A DNA stretch of 64,000 bases. It comes from Terebella lapidaria. Lineage: Eukaryota; Annelida; Polychaeta; Terebellida; Terebellidae. The translations under genes were made by a program, and so were the position numbers. This document shows, piece after piece, positions 35,966-60,110 of this stretch. Within the stretch, counting starts at the first letter, position 1, and each line of letters begins with the position of its first letter. Below the pieces are notes generated by a model, which saw only the letters and a list, made by a program, of their open reading frames with translations, did not search any database and was not told the DNA's origin. The stretch lies in assembly GCA_949152475.1 (NCBI GenBank), contig OX424567.1:22717402-22781401 (forward strand), given 5' to 3'.

Positions 35966-36028
35966 GTGTGTCTTTTGATAAAGTATTTGGTCGGGCTTTG
36001 TTTCTATTGCAAAATGTTGTATTTTACG

Positions 36029-36031
<3 letters not shown>
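35966..36031 (+). mobile_element. Left piece of a CR1/L2-like LINE split by a second LINE
   Basis: A plus-strand frame reads DDASVSFDKVFGRALFLLQN, which fits the first RT aspartate motif (D-SKAFD-V----LF-LL). It ends at the target duplication GTATTTTACGTTT (36019-36031). The same element resumes at 42093. About 60 residues normally found between this motif and the YADD region are absent, so the host copy was already deleted internally. Confidence 0.55.
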
Positions 36032-36060
<29 letters not shown>

Positions 36061-36491
36061 GGCCTAATGTTTATTTGAGACTCGTAGACACTTGATCACA
36101 ACTACGTCACAAATACACACAATAGTGATACATATCACAAAATACAGTACAGTTATTTTATATATAAATTTTTCATATAATATATCCACGTACTCGAATA
36201 AATACATATACACATGTACGTACACGACACTTGCATACAAGACCAAAATTAGAGATATTAGATATAATTGGAAATAAACAAACATATGCTCATTTTATGT
36301 ATAAACGATTTGGGAGAATCGGATCCTGAGTCGTCAGCAGCGGGTGGGCCGCCTACAACCGGATTCGCTTCACCCAAATTTGGAAATTTGTCATTTAAAC
36401 ATATATTTATTTCTACTCAAGATATACTCGATCTACACAAATACATGATTGTGCGGAGTACATAATACATAAACATATATAAACCTTTTAT

Positions 36492-39400
36492 TCATTTTTC
36501 TACCATACGGATACATATATCCCTTATTTGTTTTTCATAGTTGTACAATGTTGTCGAATTTGCATTTTCAATAGATTTAAATAAACAAATACACCTCTTA
36601 GCAACCAATATCAGTAAATTAATTGTATCCAATTCTTCTTTTGTTAACAGGTTACAATTTAGTATACCTACAATTTTCATTTCATATGATAGTTCGAGAT
36701 TGATGCCCGATATAAACTGAATATCATTTTCTACTAAATCCCACACAAGTTTTATCTTATTACATTCACAAAAGAAATGTTCTATGGTGTCTGTAGCATT
36801 ACAATGTACACATTTGTTAGTTTCAGATATTTTTACTTTGAACAAATAACTCTTCGTCGGGTATATACATTGCAATATTTTCCATTGCATCACAAATAAT
36901 TTTACTTCTCGAGTTACCGTTAACGCTAAACTCCACATATTAGATATCGATACATTAATTTCAAATTTACTAAACCAATGATTATGCACAGGTGTCTTCA
37001 CCCTAGCCTTAACATAGAATTCTCTAACATCTTTCGTTTTCAATTTACTGATTGGGGAGCCATTGAAATATATATCCTTGTTTCTATTACTGTATGATAA
37101 ACATGTTAACAAATTTGGCGACAAAGAATTTCTCACAATATTATATTCAAAAAGAGTGAGTGCGTTATTGCCTAGAATGTTTGCAACGTCATCATAACTA
37201 ATACATGCTCCTCTATCAACCACATCAGATATATATATAAAACCTCTATCAAGCCATCGCTTTAAGAAAATCGGATTATTTTTGTATGTTACGAGATCAA
37301 TATTCCATATCACTTCTGAAAATTTCCCAGTACCGTACTGTGGGTTTATATCCTTTGTGTCCAGCCAGTCCTTAAGTAACTGGCGATAAAACGACGGAAA
37401 AAATCCCTCAATTCCCCTAAATTTTGTGAAATTTGTATTCATATTGAATACAATCAAACCCGTCCCGAATTTGTTCAAATATCGATTTGGTAGAATACGC
37501 CAGGAGCCATTACCGGGGTTTAGTAATAGTTTTATCCATTTGAATGATAGGGACTTCTGCATATCGAACATATTGATCATATTTAAACCACCCGAAGCTA
37601 TATTCTGTACAAGGACATCCCGACTAATTTTTTTCCGTTGTGTTTTTGATATCATTTTCTTTGTAAACATGTTTTCTGTTCCAAATAAATTTAAAAAATA
37701 ATGTGTTCAATCTTTCCAGAATTTTATCAGGCAGTCGCAAACCCTGCATGATATATAAAAATTGTGACATCAGAAGACTTTTTGTTAGCACAATTTTCCC
37801 GTATATAGATATATTTCGACCCATCCATGACTTCATTATCCCTTCGCACTTTGTTATTCTATTTTCCCAGTTTTCAGAAATATCTGCAGCAGGACGGTCG
37901 TTTTGAAATATTACACCTAATAGATTTATACGATTATCAGGGAAAATTTTCCATTTAATGTCCGCATAATGTTTCCGTCTGTATTTCCAACATCCGACCC
38001 ATAGTGCTTCAGTTTTGTTACGATTGAGGTTAAGAAAAGATATCTCTGAAAATAAATCAATGATGCGTAAACTTTCGTCTATGGAGCTTTCGTCCCCCAT
38101 GAGCAATGTTGTATCGTCGGCATATTGTAAAATTTTTATTTCTTTCCCATTGCGGTCTCTCGAAAGTGGAATTCCCCTGATGTTATTATTCTGTCTAATT
38201 TTACAGGCTAATATTTCGCAGGCAATTATAAAGCAAACAGGCGATAATGGACAGCCTTGTCTTATCCCACATTCAATAGGAAACCAGCTGGATAGCCAGC
38301 CGTTGTAACTTATAGATGTAATGACATCAGAATTAAGGACCCTGACCCAATTAATCATTTCCGGACCAAAACCAAATATATCAAACGAATTGAGAAGAAA
38401 TTCCTTAGACAATGAATCGAATGCTTTGCTGTAATCAATTTAATCAAGGTATATTCAATTTATCTGTGAATTCTATGACGTCATCAACGGCCCGGATTAC
38501 AATTCCAGAATGTCGCCCTTTGATAAATCCATTTTGGTCTTCAGCTATTATGTCGGTCAATGCCGGTTTTAACCTATTTGATAAAACCTTAGCGAGAATT
38601 TTGTAATCGGTATTTGTTAGACTTAGCGGTCTCCAGTTAGTAAGTTCCTCTCTAGGTTTATTCTTCCCTTTATATAATAAGATCATTATTCCACGTCTTT
38701 GTGATAAGGACATTCTCCCGCAATCATAACAATATTTGTAACATTTTAGTAGAATGTTTTCAATTTTACCCCAAAACGTTCTATACCAGGCTGTTGTTAA
38801 TCCATCAATGCCTGGACTAGAATTTGTTTTCATGCTTTTTAATGCACGAAGACATTCTTCAGATGTTACCATCCCCTCGCATGATTGATACTTTTCAACC
38901 GGTCCCGTGGGAATAACTAAATCATCAATGAAATCATTTACCTTATCTGTATAAAACTGTGACTTTTTCTCATATAATTGTCGGTAAAACTGATATTGAG
39001 CCATCATTATTGTGGTTGGATCATTGGATAAGGATCCATCCTGTAATCTAATAGCCGACATCAATTTCTGTTTGGCTCTACTTTTTTCGAGATTTAGGAA
39101 ATATTTAGTGCTTTTTTCACCGTATTCTGCAAACATGGCCTTAGATCTTAATTCGGCACCTTTATCGCGTTCAAGTTCTAGCATATCCACTTCCGATTTA
39201 AGTGTATTGACTTTGTCCCGTAAAATTAAATTATTGACAGCATTTGCGAAAAGTGTAGTAGCTTCTTGCAGCAGTTCTGTAACATATTTTAATCTCGTTT
39301 TACGCTGGTATGATCGAATTTTTCCGTATCGTGTTGAGTATTCTTTAACCTTAATTTTACAAAAGTCCCATAATACATCGGGTGGCAAGAAAGAATAATC

Positions 39401-40222
39401 TTCTATACTGATATCAATAATAGCATTAATACCAGCTATATATACTTCATCTTTTAGGTAGTTGTCATTTAATTTCCAGTAACCTGGGCCCCTATTACTA
39501 GATTTCATATCATTTTCATTATGAGCAATGACTGCTCTGTGGTCTGTAAGAGGAGCATCTATTATCTCACAAGACACAACGGTATCGAATGCGTTGTGGT
39601 TGACAAATAAATAATCAATTCTGCGAATGGCTGTTTTAGATTTGTTTGACCACGTATAATCCGATTTGTTTATATTGTGATACTTCCACGTGTCTATTAC
39701 ATTCAAAGCTTCTGTCATCGTACTAAATTTCGACCTTTCAGAGTCTCTGTGCAGAGCTCCTGCTAAGTTATCACAAGAATTTAGGACACAATTGAAATCA
39801 CCGCCTATGAACACAAAGTCATTGGTATCAACTACGTTTGTCACAACATCTATTAATTTATCGAAAAACACTCCTTTCAGGTCGATTTTGTTTGGTGCAT
39901 AAACATTGAAACAACAATAGCGTACATTTTCAAACTCCAAGCAAATACCCAGTATACGTTGTTCTGTACTAATGCTTTTTATATTTGAACAATTGAATTC
40001 CGATTTTAATAAAATCATTTCACCGCAGCTATTTTTTGTACCGAACGTAGCATATAATTCTCCACCCCATTCGGCTTTCCACTGTTGTAATACACCAGGT
40101 GTGATATACGTTCCCTGTAACATTATGATATCGGCTTTTGTCTTTTTAAAAAATCTGAACATTGTAGACCGATGTCGTTTCCGACGTAACCCACGAACGT
40201 TGAGTGTCAATACTACTACCAT
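36492..40222 (-). pseudogene. LINE ORF2: APE-type endonuclease + reverse transcriptase
   Basis: ATG at 40222-40220 gives MVVVLTLNVRGLRRKR. Endonuclease motifs: LNVRGL, LQGTY (normally LQETH), GGDFNC, SDYTWSN, RRIDYLFVN, LTDHRAV. The family's catalytic Glu is Gly and the following His is Tyr in this copy. RT motifs: SSPGIDGLTTAWYRTFW, LLYKGKNKPREELTNWRPLS, LSNRLKP, DQNGFIKGR (38500-38850); DYSKAFDSLSKEF (about 38430-38390); GIRQGCPLSP; LQYADDTTLLMG (about 38100). The tail has CVHCNATDTIEHFFCEC (about 36770-36820). Frames break near 38440 (a small deletion before DYSKAFD) and near 37630 (one base short in an A run). Otherwise open to the stop at 36492. L1/Tx1 clade by motif style. Confidence 0.9.
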
Positions 40223-40476
40223 GTTCAAATATATTCATAATTAATAAAGTTATAACGCACTAATATTTTGACATTCATGATTATATAACAGGAATCGGCA
40301 TTTGCTTGCCAGGTATGTGTACATTTGATATACAAACAATTATATATAATAATGGCACTCTGGAAAACCAACAGACACCATTTTATCGTCAGAGCCAGAA
40401 GACGAAGGACAAAAAGCATAGGTCCAGAGACTGTCCAGTTCGTTTGAGTGTTGTATCGCCGTATTATAATCTCCTG

Positions 40477-42092
40477 TCAGATAGGGATGTCAAGGCGCAC
40501 CTCGGATACATTGGGTGAACCGTGGTCAGGTTTAGATATTTTGGTGGGGTTGTAGCGAGTTTCAGAAGTATTATTGAGAGGACTATGAGCTTTGCGTTTA
40601 GAAGTAACGGAAGACTCAGTGTCCTGATCGACAGCTCGGAGAGAAGATTTGTCCGACTCCGAAGAATGGAAACTAGTTTCGCCGTGAGACTCCAGAAGTG
40701 CATCAGCCTTATGAATAAGTTCTGGAGAAGAACAGGAAGGATCATCCGATGAATCAAGAACCTTTTTGATCAGGGCGTCAGCAATGGCTACTGCTTCCGA
40801 GTGACACACACCGTGGGTGGGAGACTGAGATGTCTGGGCCGGAGACTCAGGGACCCTTTTCACTGCACGAAGCTCCATCAGGAGCTGACCAAGGCGGTTG
40901 GTGCCGGGCCATTCCTCCCATAGCTAAGAAGCTGTTGCAGATGGAGGTAGTCCCGAGGCCCAGAACGTATCGGACGTAGCCTCAACCAGCAGTTTCTCAC
41001 CACTTTCGGCCAGGGCATCCCGGAATGGTTGAGATGCTTGGTACTTTGCTTCGACCACCGACCTCATTACCGATACCCGTTTGGTTTTCCAATCGCTGTT
41101 GGAGGTGTCAATGTAGTCACCGAGATCCTTCGCCTCCTTAGGAGTGTTGGTTTGCATGATATGTTTTGCTGCCACAGAGTTACCAAGATACATTGCTTTT
41201 CTATACTGATATAATTGCTCTGAAGAGCTGAAGGAGACGTTGTCGACTGTTAGATCCACGGGAAAGAAGTTGGATAGGGGATTCTTGACCCCGCGGAAGA
41301 CGACGAAATTAGGGTTTTGCCTTTGTTTGTTAGAGGGACAGTTTTTTGTGTCATGCTCTTCAGACAGGCATTTGCGACAGTTGACAATCTGTCCAGGATA
41401 GTACACAGTTATGTGAATGTCAATCAGTTTTGTTGGATCAGTAGGATCTGGAATAGGGTATGCACTGTAGCGTGGAAGCTGTTTTGTTATCAGTGTGGCA
41501 TAACAAAAGCGGTTACCATTTAACAGCTGATCCACTTTTCCGCCTCCCCGCGAAGCTTTGGCCTTAGCTTTCAGCACCCTGGACGATCTGATGGCCCAAG
41601 TATCAACCCATTGTTCAATCTCGCTATCACTCACACTGAAGGGGATCCCGTGGATGGAGATGCGGAGGCTGTTATTGGGATCATTTCTGGTAGGGTTGTA
41701 TGAACTGAAGCTTTGTAGCTCATACTGGCGACCCTCAACCTGGACTGAGTGAATTGACAATATTTTAGCTTTGGCAGCAGAGTTGCGACAGTACACTATC
41801 CACATGGGGTTGGTCATCGTGGAAACCTTTTGAACAGAGAGGATGTCATTGTCTTTCAGCTTATCAATTTCCCGTAGTATATCATTCGTGGATGAAAGTA
41901 TAATGGCAGATAGTTCAGCTTCCAAGATGTACGGCATTCTGCGAGCTGGGATACCAACCCACAGCTCCCTGTTTCTCAAGAGTTCATCCATGATGAAGTC
42001 ATTGGTTGGAGCCTCACTCCGAATGTCACCACGAGGTCTCCGTACCGCTAAAGCGATGGAAAGGTTCGTATGGGGGTATTGCTCACTCAAGC
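40477..42092 (-). pseudogene. LINE ORF1: RRM-like region, CCHC zinc knuckle and NADAR domain
   Basis: The frame is open from the truncated 5' edge (residues counted from 42090). An RRM-like stretch SLRISIHGIPFSVSDSEIEQ is at 141-160. A CCHC knuckle CRKCLSEEHDTKNC is at 238-251 (C-x2-C-x4-H-x4-C). Directly after it, residues 262-388 and beyond read as a NADAR (YbiA/DUF1768) domain: FRGVKNPLSNFFPVDL, SSSEQLYQYRKAMYLGN, AKDLGDYIDT--SDWK, VMRSVVEAKY, LLVEATSDTFWASGLP. After a TAG (40924-40926) the same frame continues LWEEWPGTNRLGQLLMELR, the usual NADAR end, so the stop is a nonsense change inside the domain. The frame then runs to 40477 with a Ser-rich tail. NADAR proteins act on ADP-ribose or riboflavin-type N-glycosidic bonds. 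The RRM call is tentative. Confidence 0.85.
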
Positions 42093-43126
42093 GTATTTTA
42101 CGTTTGTTATCAAAACTTGGTTGCCATGTGGGTCATACTTTCTGTGGTGCTCTCGCATATGCTGATGATTTGAGTCTCCTTGCCCCTAGCAGAAACGCAA
42201 TGCAACAGATGTTATATTTGTGTGAACAGTTTGGTCGAGATTATAGTGTCAAATTTAATGCTCAAAAGAGTCAATTACTGATTACGTCAAATTGTGAGTT
42301 ATCTGTTGGTGACATTAATTTGAACGGTGACAGTATTCCAGTATCCAAAAGTGGGCCCAAGTACCGTACACTGCTCCTTAATACTACTCGTCCACTGAAA
42401 CTATACCATTTAATCCGTCTCGCACCTTTTTAATCTTTATTGAATATAGAGGAAGGCGCAGGATATGATACTTGGGCCCAAAAGTGTAATACATCTTGGT
42501 AATGCAGTTGGTGAGAACAATACACCTATTTGTGTGAACAAGAACATTCAGGATCTGATATACAGAACCAATTATGTCCTATGTCGCTTTGTAACTATGA
42601 AGTAAAGAATTTTTTGTTCCGAGCATATTGTACCAGTTATTACGGTAGCCCACTATGGAAACTGAGTGATCCGCACATTTCTAAATTTTACGCAACATGG
42701 AGAAAATGTGTTCGGAGAATATGGAATTTACCCCCGACCACCCATGGGAGATATTTACAGCATTTAGTTGAGGATATGTCTATTGAAGCCCAAATGTTAT
42801 ACAGATTTGCAGTGTTTTATATTTCTCTTATTAACAGTGAAAATGGTCTGGTCACAATGTGCAGAAAGATATGCACCATCTCAAATAGTCACGTTGGTAG
42901 AAACTATAGAAAACTGATGTCAACATTACGACTAGACGATAATATTGTAACTTGGACAAAACATTTCATGAAAAGGGTCATATCTAATTGTTTTCAATGT
43001 GATGATGAATGTCAGGCTGTTGCATCGGCCATTAAAGAGTTATGCAATATGAGAGAAGGGTACATTGTACAACAATTCCCGAAACAATTTATTGACACAT
43101 TACTGGTGGACATGTGTGTGAATTAA
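42093..43126 (+). mobile_element. Right piece of the CR1/L2-like LINE (RT end and C-terminal domain)
   Basis: The frame resumes at the second copy of the target duplication: LRLLSKLGCHVGHTFCGALA then YADDLSLLAPSRNAMQQMLY (42105-42210), FNAQKSQLL, a frame change near 42380-42530, then FLFRAYCTSYYGSPLWKLSD and WRKCVRRIWNLPPTTHGRYL (42600-42770). It ends at 43126. This is the RT palm end, thumb and C-terminal region of a CR1/L2-type LINE. The piece is interrupted from its 5' part by the Tx1/L1-like insertion. Confidence 0.8.
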
Positions 43127-43809: not shown

Positions 43810-44760
43810 TGGCCGATCATGAAGGAAAAATGAGGTCAAAGGTCAAATTCAAGGTCATAACAATATTGACCATATATTAATTCATTCATGTTCACAATTG
43901 ATTCCCAAGCCGTTAAGTTGATAAGAAACAAAATATTAGCCATTTTGTGCTCCGACCTTGAAAATGAAGTCAAAGGTCAAGTTCATGGTCATGAGAATAC
44001 TCAGCATATATAATTTTCTACTTGTACACAACATATTCCCAAACTGTAAAGTCGATAAAAAACAAGATAGTAGTCATTTTGTGCTCTGACCTTGAAAATA
44101 AGGTCAAAGGTCAAATTCGAGGTCACAACAATGTGCAGCATATATTATTTCCTATAGGTTCACAATCGATTCCTGAGCTGTAAAATCGATAATAAGCAAG
44201 ATATTAGCCATATCGTGCTCTGACCTTGAAAATAAGGTCAAAGGTCAAATATAATTCAAGATCACGAGAATATTCAGCACATGTCACTTCCTATATGTCC
44301 ACAATTGATTCCTAAGCTGTAAAGTTTATATTAAGTGAGATATTAGCCATTTTGTACTTTGACCTTGAAAATGAGGTCAAAGGTCAAATTCAAGGTCCAT
44401 CAAAATATTCGGACTACATCATTTCCCATATGCGCAGAATTGATTCCAAAGCTGTAAAGTCGATAATAAGCGAGATATTAGCCATTTTATGCTTCGACCT
44501 TGAAAATGAGGTCAAAGGTCAAATTCAAGGTCATCAAAATATTCGGACAATATCATTTCCTGTATGTGCACAATTGATTCCTAAGCTGTAAAGTCGATAA
44601 TAAGTGAGATATTAGCCACTTTGTGCTCTGACCTTGAAAATGAGGTCAAAGGTCAAATGCAAGGTCATGACAATTATCAGCATATATCATTTCCTATGTG
44701 TCCACAATTGATTCCTAGTCTCTAATATCAATATTAAGTGAGATATTAGGCATAATTATA
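43810..44760. repeat. 134-bp satellite with nuclear-receptor DR1 motifs
   Basis: Seven head-to-tail units, with the shared box starting at 43833, 43967, 44101, 44235, 44374, 44509 and 44643 (period 134-139). Each contains GACCTTGAAAATGAGGTCAA and AGGTCAAATTCAAGGTCAT. Six of seven boxes are the exact direct repeat AGGTCA-A-AGGTCA; the one at 43967 has AAGTCA first. The rest of the unit includes CACAATTGATTCC and GAGATATTAGCCATTTTGTG. No ORF of interest. Confidence 0.9.
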
Positions 44761-45200
44761 AAGTGTCCCATTATAAAGCATAGGAGAATTTAACATGAGA
44801 AAGTCCTATTTGGGACCCGTCAAGAAAATGAAAATGGCCGCTACACGCAGACCGGCGATTCAGGGGCAACGAAATTTATACACATCACAGAGGTATGTGG
44901 GAGCAATCTTTTGAAATAAAAATCTCAAAACTGTCTGAACAGTTTTTGAGATGGCCGCCAAAGTCAGAAATTGGCCGTTTTTCGGCGAAAATGGCCGCCA
45001 TTTTGAGAAAAATGCGAAAATCAAAAAACAAAAAAATAACCCCGTCTTGAAATATTTTTAGGTATTTTTGTGCAAAATTTCAGAAAGATCCGATCGTAAA
45101 TTTCAAAGATAAAGATGTGGACGGACGACGCCGACGATGGACGCAAAGCCATGCCAATAGGTTATCGGACCTTAGGTCCAGTAACCTAAAAACCAGAAGT
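44761..45200. repeat. Dispersed module ending AGGTTATCGGACC...GTAACCTAAAAACC
   Basis: Contains AAAATGGCCGCCATTTTGAG, GACGGACGACGCCGACGATG and the terminal CCAATAGGTTATCGGACC. An inverted relative of its end lies at 16818-16866. The GACGGACGACG phrase has a counterpart in the CGTCCGTCGTCC of the 53800-54050 repeat. Non-coding. Confidence 0.55.
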
Positions 45201-58427: not shown

Positions 58428-59609
58428 TCAATGCATATATTCTTCCATCTCGTCATGCACAATGTCAAGAATATGCACCAATAGATCAGCTGCCATACTG
58501 AGGCTACTAGGTTTAACAAGACTGTCTTCCTCTACAACACTTTGAAAAATGTTTTTGTATATCTCTGAACACGATTCTGGTTCTTTGGTCAATACTTCGC
58601 AAAGGACGTCCAGCGTGGCTTCATGCAATGGCTTCATATACGATTTGCTGTTGAACAGTTCAGGTAGGTTGAACATGACATCTGGTTTTCCCGAGGGTGC
58701 GTCATCCATTCGACTTGGCCGAATGGCGTGAGAGTTCCATTGCAGTTGTATATTGTCCAGTTCGTTCTGTAATAACTCCATATAGCAGAATCTTATGCAC
58801 TCTATGTCGAGTCGGGATGTAATATCGAAAATTCTGTAATTCTCGAGCCTTCGGAAGTGGTCAATCCAGGCACCCATTCCAAGAATTGGAAATTTGCTCC
58901 ACCAACTCTCAATTCTTTGATTGGACGTCGAACGCCCATACAGAAACGCAGTATTCATAACACCCCTGAAATCGCCATTTTGAAGCCTCAAGCACGTCTG
59001 CATCAACTCAATGTTACAATTCTCTGTCCCACGATCTGCGCGTATAACACATGGAAGAATACCTGCAGCTCTAATGGACTCGGCAAAATAATTACACACA
59101 ACATAGGGGTCATTATTTGTGGAGGACGCCTTCAGCCATAAAACTTTCCTTGAATACCCATCGATGCATCCATGAACACACAAGCCATATCGCTTCAGCT
59201 TATTCCATCCGTCAGTGTGATGAAGATAGTTCGGTCCCTTGGCGAAATACAGTCGTCCTCTCAGTCTACGTCGTTTTCTTAGCGAAACACCTTCTGGTTC
59301 CAGAGATTTGAGAATTAACCTTATGCTTTCTCTGTCAACGTGCATTCCGTATTTCACCCGGAGCCTGCTCTGCATGGATCTGTAACCGCAATCTCGTCCG
59401 CTATCGGAAAGTTCGTACTGTACTGTATTGACCACAACATCCCAATTTCTATCGCGATTAGCTCTGCGCATCAGTCCGTTCGCTCGTAAAATTCGGTGAA
59501 TCTGACGAATACTGAGGTTTTCTGCATGGATACGAGTTAGAAATGCCTGAATCTCCAAGTAGCTGAAGCCCATTGTGTAATAATGCATTATCCAACAGAT
59601 ACGATCCAT
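58428..59609 (-). CDS. Integrase-like (DDE, RNase-H fold) protein of a repeated invertebrate family
   Basis: The open frame reaches 59819, but its first 70 codons lie in an inverted-repeat arm and an AT/T-rich junction. I therefore favour Met at 59609 (MDRICWIMHYYTMGFSYLEI). Residues below are counted from 59819. A helix-turn-helix-like N-terminus (FSYLEIQAFLTRIHAENLSI, IHRILRANGLMRR) is followed by GYRSMQSRLR and a basic RKRRRLRGRL. The catalytic core has D203 in HHTDGWNKLK, D262 in IRADRGTEN and E304 in NQRIESWW (D-58-D-41-E). GCIDGYSRKVLWLKA and NSHAIRPSR are family hallmarks as I remember them from multi-copy invertebrate and fish proteins. The C-terminal 100 residues are not recognised. 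Transposase or integrase activity is inferred from the triad. The frame is unbroken. Confidence 0.7.
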   Translation of the reverse strand: MDRICWIMHYYTMGFSYLEIQAFLTRIHAENLSIRQIHRILRANGLMRRANRDRNWDVVVNTVQYELSDSGRDCGYRSMQSRLRVKYGMHVDRESIRLILKSLEPEGVSLRKRRRLRGRLYFAKGPNYLHHTDGWNKLKRYGLCVHGCIDGYSRKVLWLKASSTNNDPYVVCNYFAESIRAAGILPCVIRADRGTENCNIELMQTCLRLQNGDFRGVMNTAFLYGRSTSNQRIESWWSKFPILGMGAWIDHFRRLENYRIFDITSRLDIECIRFCYMELLQNELDNIQLQWNSHAIRPSRMDDAPSGKPDVMFNLPELFNSKSYMKPLHEATLDVLCEVLTKEPESCSEIYKNIFQSVVEEDSLVKPSSLSMAADLLVHILDIVHDEMEEYMH

Positions 59610-59689
59610 GTCATTTGTGAATGTAATTATATTATTCAGTTGAATGTAAATCCACATGATATAGTCTGTGGGCCATTCTGAAAAAAAAA

Positions 59690-60110
59690 AATTTCGTCGC
59701 CAAATCGGGCATATTAGGTTTCTTGGTGTCATTGTGTAGGTTTTAATATCAGGAAAAATATTAGACCGGGTAACCTTCTCTAAGAGTGTCCAAACAATGG
59801 AAAAAATGACTTTTTCCAAGATGGCCGCCGAGTCCGATCAAAAAGTTTGTTTTTGTTTTTTCTCTGCTTCTAGACGTGCTAGAAGTGTAATCTTAGTGTC
59901 CTTTCTTAGGTTTTGAGGGTTGAGGAATCCAATAAAATACATTCCAATAATAATTATGCATTATTTCAATTGCAAAAATGCACTTCGACTGGTATTTGAA
60001 CGTCAGAAATAGCTATTTGCGAAGGAAATCTGTTTTCAAATGTAGTTGCGAAATTCAGTTTCACGTATTACCATTTTGGACAAAACAATCCCATGAATAC
60101 ATCATTAAGA
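59690..60110 (+). repeat. Inverted repeat, left arm
   Basis: Pairs with 63515-63948: GGCATATTAGGTTTCTTGGT, AAATATTAGACCGGGTAACC, AAGATGGCCGCC, AAAAAGTTTGTTTTTGTTTT, CTGGTATTTGAACGTCAGAA. Identity is about 80-85% by eye. Homology stops abruptly at GGCGACGAAA on the integrase side (59690), where the integrase copy continues with a T run and CAG. Confidence 0.8.

Follow-up and report, generated by a model that had tools for sequence, protein, structure and literature searches.

The systems closest to the one described here are reported in PMC12477816 (Genome Biology 2025), the available text of which describes several Tx1 families in Crassostrea gigas with a NADAR domain in ORF1. The same paper describes a NADAR in the Pol of a Gypsy element of Ectocarpus, which was possibly acquired horizontally and gave hits that were almost only bacterial. 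The ORF1s of LINEs have been divided into types I to V, among them ORF1s with a PHD or an esterase (PMC4120745). NADARs are found in many invertebrates, in which their physiological role is called unclear in the available part of PMC11125620, and hydrolysis of guanine-linked ADP-ribose (guanine-ADPr) in DNA is on record for one eukaryotic and several bacterial and phage NADARs (PMC11543638, PMC11125620). In addition, the NADARs of metazoan RNA viruses were proposed to counter host ADP-ribosyltransferases (ARTs; PMC9503650).

The window, by which we mean the whole 64-kb stretch of DNA analysed here, holds a decayed copy of a LINE in whose ORF1 a YbiA-type NADAR comes after an RNA-binding part. 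Likened by description only, with the available text of PMC12477816 as the basis, the element looks like a member of the oyster Tx1-NADAR kind. The Tx1/L1-like insertion is truncated at its 5' end and occupies positions 36,030 to 42,092 on the minus strand, as delimited by blastn of the family copies, with its ends given by a TSD and a poly(A) tail. The 11-bp TSD, ACGTAAAATAC, was identified by sequence match at 36,019 to 36,029 (3' copy) and at 42,093 to 42,103 (5' copy), both read on the minus strand; it has exactly two matches in the 64 kb, against a mean of 0.02 expected, and was found twice in none of 100 shuffles. The poly(A) tail of ~28 residues (36,030 to 36,057, minus strand) appears as a run of T on the plus strand. 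The run counts 29 T from position 36,029, the first base of which possibly belongs to the TSD. Over the stretches aligned by blastn, the ~6-kb element is 98.7–99.2% identical to four copies elsewhere in the genome (762 Mb in 438 contigs), namely L022, L023, L024 and L025 (L055, the downstream part of the L022 copy, is counted with L022), and its 5' end lies ~220 bp short of the start common to L022, L023 and L024. The TSD, the poly(A) tail and the 5' truncation are hallmarks of TPRT, and the window LINE is an ordinary, young target-primed insertion. The ATG of ORF1 lies inside the insertion despite the truncation.

ORF2 of the window copy is interrupted and remains as three open frames on the minus strand: (i) an EEP endonuclease with the start of the reverse transcriptase (RT) at 38,444 to 40,228 (Exo_endo_phos, E = 4.5e-12; RVT_1, E = 6e-07), (ii) a further piece of the RT at 37,624 to 38,412 (RVT_1, E = 9.3e-15), and (iii) a zf-RVT-like end at 36,492 to 37,670 (E = 5.9e-06). 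The zf-RVT match falls just below its cut-off (27.3 against 27.5 bits). Both the endonuclease and the RT were thus found by Pfam in the same ORF2, as in LINEs of the APE type, and the ORF2 of the L022 copy is likewise interrupted. Among solved structures, the RT of L055 is nearest to L1 ORF2p (E = 2e-39, versus 4.7e-16 for R2); this nearest structure is the basis for placing the element in the L1 superfamily, and the name Tx1 follows the first-pass annotation of this DNA and PMC12477816.

That annotation had placed a Tx1/L1-like ORF1, with a CCHC knuckle followed by a NADAR, at 40,477 to 42,092, and both the place and the kind of the protein were borne out. ORF1 is read on the minus strand from an ATG at 41,991 to the stop at 40,477 to 40,479 (40,477 to 41,991 in all), with one in-frame TAG. 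Its CCHC zinc knuckle, of the form C..C....H....C, spans C205 to C218 (41,338 to 41,379, minus strand); Pfam zf-CCHC_3 matches it at E = 0.2 only. The NADAR, split by the TAG, lies at 40,867 to 41,301 on the minus strand, as read from PF08719 and an AlphaFold2 model. The part before the TAG matches positions 11–133 of the PF08719 profile at E = 1.3e-22 and 81.3 bits, against a cut-off of 35.1 bits, and a chance match is therefore excluded; the piece behind the TAG gives a weak match in the same frame (positions 143–160, E = 0.064). The order of knuckle and NADAR stands as first described, and the NADAR starts 12 residues behind the last cysteine of the knuckle by the profile built here, or 18 by the Pfam match. 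One of the motifs from which the domain was first read, WPGTNRLGQLLMELR, sits behind the in-frame stop in the window copy.

The TAG itself (40,924 to 40,926, minus strand) is absent from the complete NADARs of L022, L023, L024 and L025, and the cut-off of PF08719 was also passed by L001, L009, L019, L030 and L042. Therefore, the possibility of a single freak copy is rejected, and the fusion extends, as whole domains, to the family copies of the window element and to diverged families. In the AlphaFold2 model of the window NADAR, read through the TAG and built with 13 bacterial relatives, the mean pLDDT is 80.3, with values of 54–66 near residues 110–140 and low values at the very end. The model matched the NADAR of Phytophthora nicotianae best (8bau; E = 3.5e-05, TMq 0.70) and E. 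coli YbiA second (2b3w; E = 2.4e-04, TMq 0.65), and these were the only PDB matches at E ≤ 0.001 among 39 at E ≤ 10. The window NADAR is thus predicted to have the YbiA fold. In NCBIfam, TIGR02464 (cut-off 73.7 bits) was passed by both ORF1 types described below, by L022 with 100.1 bits and by L015 with 153.4 bits, in a set from which the window copy was left out. The anti-phage NADAR model NF053876 gave matches as well, which stayed far under its cut-off (65.3 and 50.4 versus 240 bits). TIGR02464, the best NCBIfam match, stands for a riboflavin-intermediate N-glycosidase, the substrate of which is other than guanine-ADPr. By PADLOC, both types of ORF1 match an unexplained model, PDC-M42C, which adds no function.

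According to the available text of PMC11543638, the distal ribose is bound by E43 and E125 of the P. nicotianae NADAR, and the pyrophosphate by K50. For an E. coli NADAR, catalysis is assigned there to E88, K95 and D171, with a loss of activity for D171, the equivalent of E125. The paper also reports an E. coli NADAR with a conserved glutamate, E173, that is not important for catalysis. By our own reading of the spacing, E88 and K95 would correspond to E43 and K50. Alignment to 8bau (E = 1.4e-24 for L015 and 2.9e-10 for L022) gave the equivalents in the window ORF1 on the minus strand: E258 for E43 (41,218 to 41,220), K265 for K50 (41,197 to 41,199) and E337 for E125, the glutamate of the YbiA subfamily (40,981 to 40,983). 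We then compared 78 rows of LINE NADARs, near-copies included, of which 31 belong to type A and 47 to type B (see below); they represent 77 places, as L009 and L051 overlap, and the domains of L104 and L108 are absent. The equivalents of E43 and W89 are E and W, respectively, in all 78 rows, and that of E125 is E in all 76 rows that have the column, which is missing in two of the 78. The lysine linked to the hydrolysis of guanine-ADPr in PMC11543638, K50, has K as its equivalent in 71 of 78 rows, and the active-site comparison came out in favour of the domain as first annotated. By the glutamate of the last strand, in the place of Asp or His, the LINE NADARs belong to the YbiA subfamily. At the position of K50, L060, L061, L062, L065, L073 and L075 have Q, L or R; these six come from one sub-clade of type B in which L059, L063 and L069 keep K. 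L031 has N there. Besides, F or C replaces the W133 equivalent in 5 of 76 rows, and among the 30 type A rows that extend over D130, 14 have D and 16 have H or N. The variation at K50, W133 and D130 therefore makes an altered chemistry possible in some lineages.

A profile search of the genome with PF08719 revealed at least 150 NADAR matches. The best 150 of 973 candidates were scored, all of which lie above the cut-off; at least 144 are free of internal stops, and at least 84 of these are in frames of 400 amino acids or longer. Two architectures account for nearly everything that we inspected. Type A, that of the window, comprises an N-terminal part, the CCHC knuckle, the NADAR and a variable tail. 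Type B comprises an L1-ORF1p-like coiled coil, RRM and CTD, with the NADAR as its C-terminal end, and was found at 39 of the 40 inspected among the 150 scored places. The exception, L074, has its NADAR joined to a Gypsy-like Pol. Of the 30 type A loci (L021–L050), 27 have the strict form of the knuckle, C..C....H....C, and L046, L047 and L050 do not. The knuckle of L050 is one residue shorter in the alignment.

Compared with the PDB, the profile of type A (A3) had one hit within E ≤ 1, to a protein with an RRM (E = 0.83). The profile of type B (A4) matched LINE-1 ORF1p (2ykp, E = 1.7e-09; 2yko, 5.1e-09; 2ldy, 1.2e-04), and, judged from its profile, architecture B is a type II ORF1, that is, of the L1 ORF1p kind. 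The type A profile matched all 33 loci that carry the label A and 0 of the 48 that carry the label B, and A4 matched 47 of the 48 labelled B, some of them over part of the model, and none of the 33 labelled A; some of these loci had built the profiles (11 of the B loci in the case of A4), and the label B was given to every locus outside L021–L050 and L108–L110. Homology between the N-terminal parts of A and B was considered and rejected, since the two profiles aligned over nine columns only, at E = 0.092, and each of them fails to match the loci of the other type.

The association of these ORF1s with the NADAR is close to invariable. Of 56 near-complete matches to the type A N-terminal part (from residue ≤20 to ≥219, paired by eye with the NADAR matches), 55 are followed by a NADAR match, a few of them partial or in another frame; in the sole exception, L110, the sequence breaks off ~15 residues into the NADAR. 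In search of NADAR-less ORF1s, we fetched 11 regions that had an ORF1 match and no NADAR entry or a short one. Nine of them gave a NADAR, in some cases partial or split over frames, and the remaining two, L101 and L110, have no NADAR match and both break off ~15 residues into the domain. Eight type B ORF1s that lacked a NADAR entry were among those fetched, out of a larger number of such rows; in seven of them a NADAR is present, whole or in part, and the eighth is the broken L101. Thus, none of the 11 regions fetched, which come from the best-scored candidates, provided a clean example of a type A or type B ORF1 that lacks the domain, and the NADAR appears to be nearly fixed in both ORF1 types.

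Comparison of diverged families reveals a strong constraint on the amino acids of the domain. L001 was compared with L003, L004 and L005, which are near-copies and therefore count as a single comparison. The NADAR has an omega of 0.08, with a confidence interval from 0.04 to at most 0.17 (upper limits 0.15–0.17), and omega of the part before the NADAR is 0.11–0.16; this is the one independent pair that is not saturated. Among 43 hand-picked pairs, 17 are saturated, with pS ≥ 0.75 and pN of the NADAR of 0.13–0.37, and in these 17 pairs pN of the NADAR is about as low as that of the RNA-binding part and lower than that of the type A tail. From the low pN at pS ≥ 0.75, together with the omega of 0.08, we conclude that selection has maintained the NADAR along active lineages, beyond what would be expected of a passenger. 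Pairs that are nearly identical differ at few sites and vary in their ratios, among them L027/L031 with an omega of 2.5 (12 replacement and two silent changes). The latter pattern is as expected of a decaying copy.

As to the origin of the domain, a tree of 40 LINE NADARs and 14 NADARs of bacteria and phages put all LINE domains on one side of a branch (support 96/83). Type A forms one clade (100/100) on a long branch (1.08), and a type B clade excluding A was rejected (p-AU 0.027). An earlier tree gave only 68/41 at the branch between LINE and bacterial domains. It was built from 34 non-redundant domains of the 42 in L001–L075, with eight truncated ones or near-copies left out, and from 14 of 24 bacterial loci; the later tree adds six LINE domains from L100–L109 and combines seven of those 14 bacterial loci with four plasmid and three phage ones. 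A single capture followed by transfer between the ORF1 types would fit this tree, the scope of which is LINE and bacterial-type NADARs, with other animal and viral-eukaryote NADARs outside it. Within this set of LINE and bacterial-type NADARs, independent captures for A and B were given up on the position of the LINE domains on one side of the branch (96/83). The NADAR of L015 (type B) is up to 46–48% identical to bacterial, plasmid and phage NADARs, and one scan of viral contigs gave no relative of this domain.

The ORF1s and ORF2s appear to have been combined in more than one way. Behind the 30 type A ORF1s, the endonuclease is of the window's kind at 17 loci and of a second kind at 11, and at two loci none was matched within reach. 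We provisionally take the second kind of ORF2 to be CR1/L2-like. In three type A examples with the second kind of endonuclease (L042, L043 and L050), we found a 2A-like D-I-E-x-N-P-G-P motif, which is presumably a 2A; the occurrence of 2A in such elements is the subject of a paper cited in the literature. The RT behind the type A ORF1 of L042 (L111) is 47% identical over 704 residues to L053, which lies behind a type B ORF1, and 26% identical over 232 residues to the RT of the window's family. L052 and L053, the RTs behind the type B ORF1s of L001 and L004, are closer to L111 (44–47%) than to L051 and L054, which are also behind type B ORF1s (35–37%), and the types of ORF1 and ORF2 have therefore been mixed. 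As type A stands before both Tx1/L1-like and CR1/L2-like ORF2s, the module has therefore crossed LINE groups, and the sequences suggest that the type A ORF1 moved at least once between Tx1-like and CR1/L2-like ORF2s. Several exchanges of the ORF2 type were also considered and given up, as the type A tree displays two changes and a single one is not rejected (p-AU 0.38). For type B, an endonuclease was found within the 1.2–2.6 kb behind the NADAR in three of 40 cases, L009, L067 and, weakly, L066, the stretch behind the NADAR of L074 being 0.6 kb only. In longer stretches behind L001, L004, L009 and L015, a same-strand frame with endonuclease and RT follows in four of four cases, ~0.2–2.1 kb on. 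The link between ORF1 and ORF2 is thinner for type B than for type A.

As our main reading, to which we give a probability of roughly 0.4, we infer that the LINE NADAR is an active glycosidase, held on the RNP, which removes guanine-linked ADP-ribose and acts in cis as a counter-defence, a role that the first-pass annotation had also put forward. ORF1p would coat the RNA of the element, and the NADAR would thereby be kept near that RNA and near the target DNA at its nick and the cDNA as it grows. At this place the enzyme would cut the N-glycosidic bond between ADP-ribose and guanine, or a similar base adduct, so that the reverse transcriptase could still read its template and primer. A host ADP-ribosyltransferase used against parasites would be the likeliest source of the adducts, and the NADAR would therefore be a cis-acting counter-defence. 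In favour of this reading are the family, the fold, the conserved active site, the constraint, the near-fixation and the precedents cited above. The variation at K50, W133 and D130, the other substrate of TIGR02464, the low scores with NF053876, the E. coli E173 and the limit of one unsaturated independent pair speak against it. By analogy with the NADARs of metazoan RNA viruses (PMC9503650), counter-defence may be the likeliest reason for the fusion. A genome search with PF22596 (Scabin-like, guanine-ADP-ribosylating) gave no match, and its control was equally silent, so the result proves nothing. Matches of the PARP type number 32 when counted by exon, and are uninformative on targets. A search for haemocyanin, as a marker of the host phylum, likewise had no match and a silent control, and COX1 pointed to a likely mitochondrial contig. 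The wider scenario, in which animal LINEs acquired a NADAR in a single event from a source of the bacterial type, after which it became fixed in two unrelated ORF1 architectures and passed between Tx1-like and CR1/L2-like elements, and in which it strips ADP-ribose placed by the host from the element's own RNA, cDNA or target DNA, is offered tentatively, as one that may well turn out otherwise in this combined form.

An active glycosidase could also take part in the routine maturation of element RNA or in the processing of ends derived from NAD, with no counter-defence involved, and we regard this as possible though doubtful. The same conserved active site would suit such a role; to our knowledge, most LINE groups do without a NADAR and no RNA substrate of a NADAR is on record, and both points count against it. 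Support comes from SNA-3, a nematode protein with three NADARs that is needed for SL1 trans-splicing according to the available text of PMC9303266, and from the authors of PMC12477816, who suggest the processing of RNA intermediates for the elements of Ectocarpus and the oyster. It seems rather unlikely that the domain mainly binds, be it to ADP-ribose, to poly-ADP-ribosylated chromatin or to RNA, and thereby assists the RNP in its assembly or in reaching nicked DNA, with catalysis secondary or lost. Such a role would agree with the variable equivalents of K50, W133 and D130 in some lineages and with the place of the NADAR beside an RNA-binding-type part in both ORF1 types; the catalytic glutamates, of which binding is not clearly in need, are nevertheless kept in every row with the columns. 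Less probable still is an action in the cytoplasm and off the RNP, whereby the NADAR would clear small soluble derivatives of ADP-ribose, or reactive nucleotides, that act as signals in host immunity. This role was proposed for NADARs of phages and DNA viruses (PMC9503650), and NCBIfam assigns the domain to the riboflavin-intermediate N-glycosidases, yet the joining of the domain to an RNA-binding ORF1, seen in both architectures, favours an action in cis. Finally, an annotation accident or a functionless one-off insertion, which the broken state of the window copy (TAG in the NADAR, ORF2 interrupted) might suggest, is refuted by the complete domains in L022–L025, which are 98.8–99.2% identical to it, and in diverged families and by the constraint on the protein.

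If the NADAR de-ADP-ribosylates nucleic acid of the element, this would be a sign of a host defence, so far undescribed, that works through ADP-ribosylation of nucleic acid. A portable counter-defence of this kind would imply that ADP-ribosylation is used against retrotransposons in these animals, in parallel to the defence against phages by DarT. The window ORF1 has the NADAR domain in common with DarT1-NADAR (DarTG1), and an ART toxin gene was not among the Pfam matches of seven frames in the window, five of which are in the element. According to the available text of PMC11543638, the NADARs linked to DarT1 have an aspartate, in contrast to the YbiA-type glutamate of the LINE NADARs.

The CCHC-NADAR fusion of the window as such is already in print. 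The available text of PMC12477816 likewise describes Tx1-type LINEs with a YbiA-family NADAR in ORF1, in Crassostrea gigas, and the doubt about novelty that the first-pass annotation had expressed was justified. What that text says on the oyster includes no mention of a fusion to a type II ORF1, of exchange between ORF2 groups or of an analysis of constraint. Among the literature matches listed, no other report of a NADAR in a retrotransposon was found, with subscription literature mostly outside the scope. Thus, as far as searched, four findings are new: the type II ORF1 fusion, the near-fixation, the constraint, and the presence of the domain with more than one group of ORF2.

The Ectocarpus Gypsy element likewise carries a YbiA-family NADAR in a retrotransposon; however, it is an LTR element, and the domain is in Pol, not in ORF1 (PMC12477816, available text). 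The NADAR of P. nicotianae (8bau) and E. coli YbiA (2b3w) have the same fold and catalytic glutamates as the LINE NADAR, and differ in that they are stand-alone proteins, as far as described in PMC11125620, whereas the LINE NADAR is part of a retrotransposon. All NADARs that we inspected in the genome are in retrotransposon ORFs, nearly all of them LINE ORF1s. If this is true elsewhere, much of the puzzle of invertebrate NADARs may be retrotransposon biology. The ORF1s classified in PMC4120745 likewise combine RNA binding with added domains, and the NADAR is not among the domains named in the available part of that paper; with it, the LINEs described here show how a single enzyme domain can be joined to ORF1s of two architectures that are unrelated to each other. 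Movement of a whole ORF1 was proposed there between CR1 and L2, and the type A elements would extend it to Tx1/L1-like and CR1/L2-like ORF2s, as a case of a whole ORF1 moving between elements of the L1 type and the CR1/L2 type.

The host site of the Tx1/L1-like LINE in the window (36030-42092, minus strand) seems to be the interior of another LINE, the reverse transcriptase (RT) of which lies on the plus strand. The sequence that would belong to this outer element is 42104-43126 and the stretch before 36019, and a Pfam RVT_1 match (E = 5.5e-07) was located at 42041-42433 on the plus strand. A tandem minisatellite with a unit of roughly 135 bp resides nearby (window 43827-45077), and the minisatellite flanking the near-identical copy L024 (L024:1-1228) was 78-87% identical to it when the element copies were compared with the window. 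Further along, a 463-aa open frame (58428-59819, minus strand) resembles an integrase core on visual inspection; a similar end was found upstream of ORF1 in another genomic locus, L013.

Elsewhere in the genome, PARP-domain matches lie in open frames of 2125 aa (C4:43474849) and 2194 aa (C2:45352336), which are unusual for an intron-bearing animal gene. At a single locus, L074 (L074:37-2472, minus strand; C8:827000-830000), a LINE-type NADAR was fused in frame to a Gypsy-like protease and RT of Pol, forming an 812-aa open frame, albeit this join at one locus may be a chance nested insertion.

In the ORF1 of L109, of type A (CCHC-NADAR), two CCHC-like motifs precede NADAR, which continues in a different frame. 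Within one sub-clade of type B (coiled coil-RRM-CTD-NADAR), the NADAR alignment placed Q, L or R (L060, L061, L062, L065, L073 and L075) at the equivalent of K50, the Phytophthora nicotianae NADAR (8bau) lysine linked with guanine-ADPr hydrolysis (PMC11543638); judging from these residues, the chemistry may be altered in such members.
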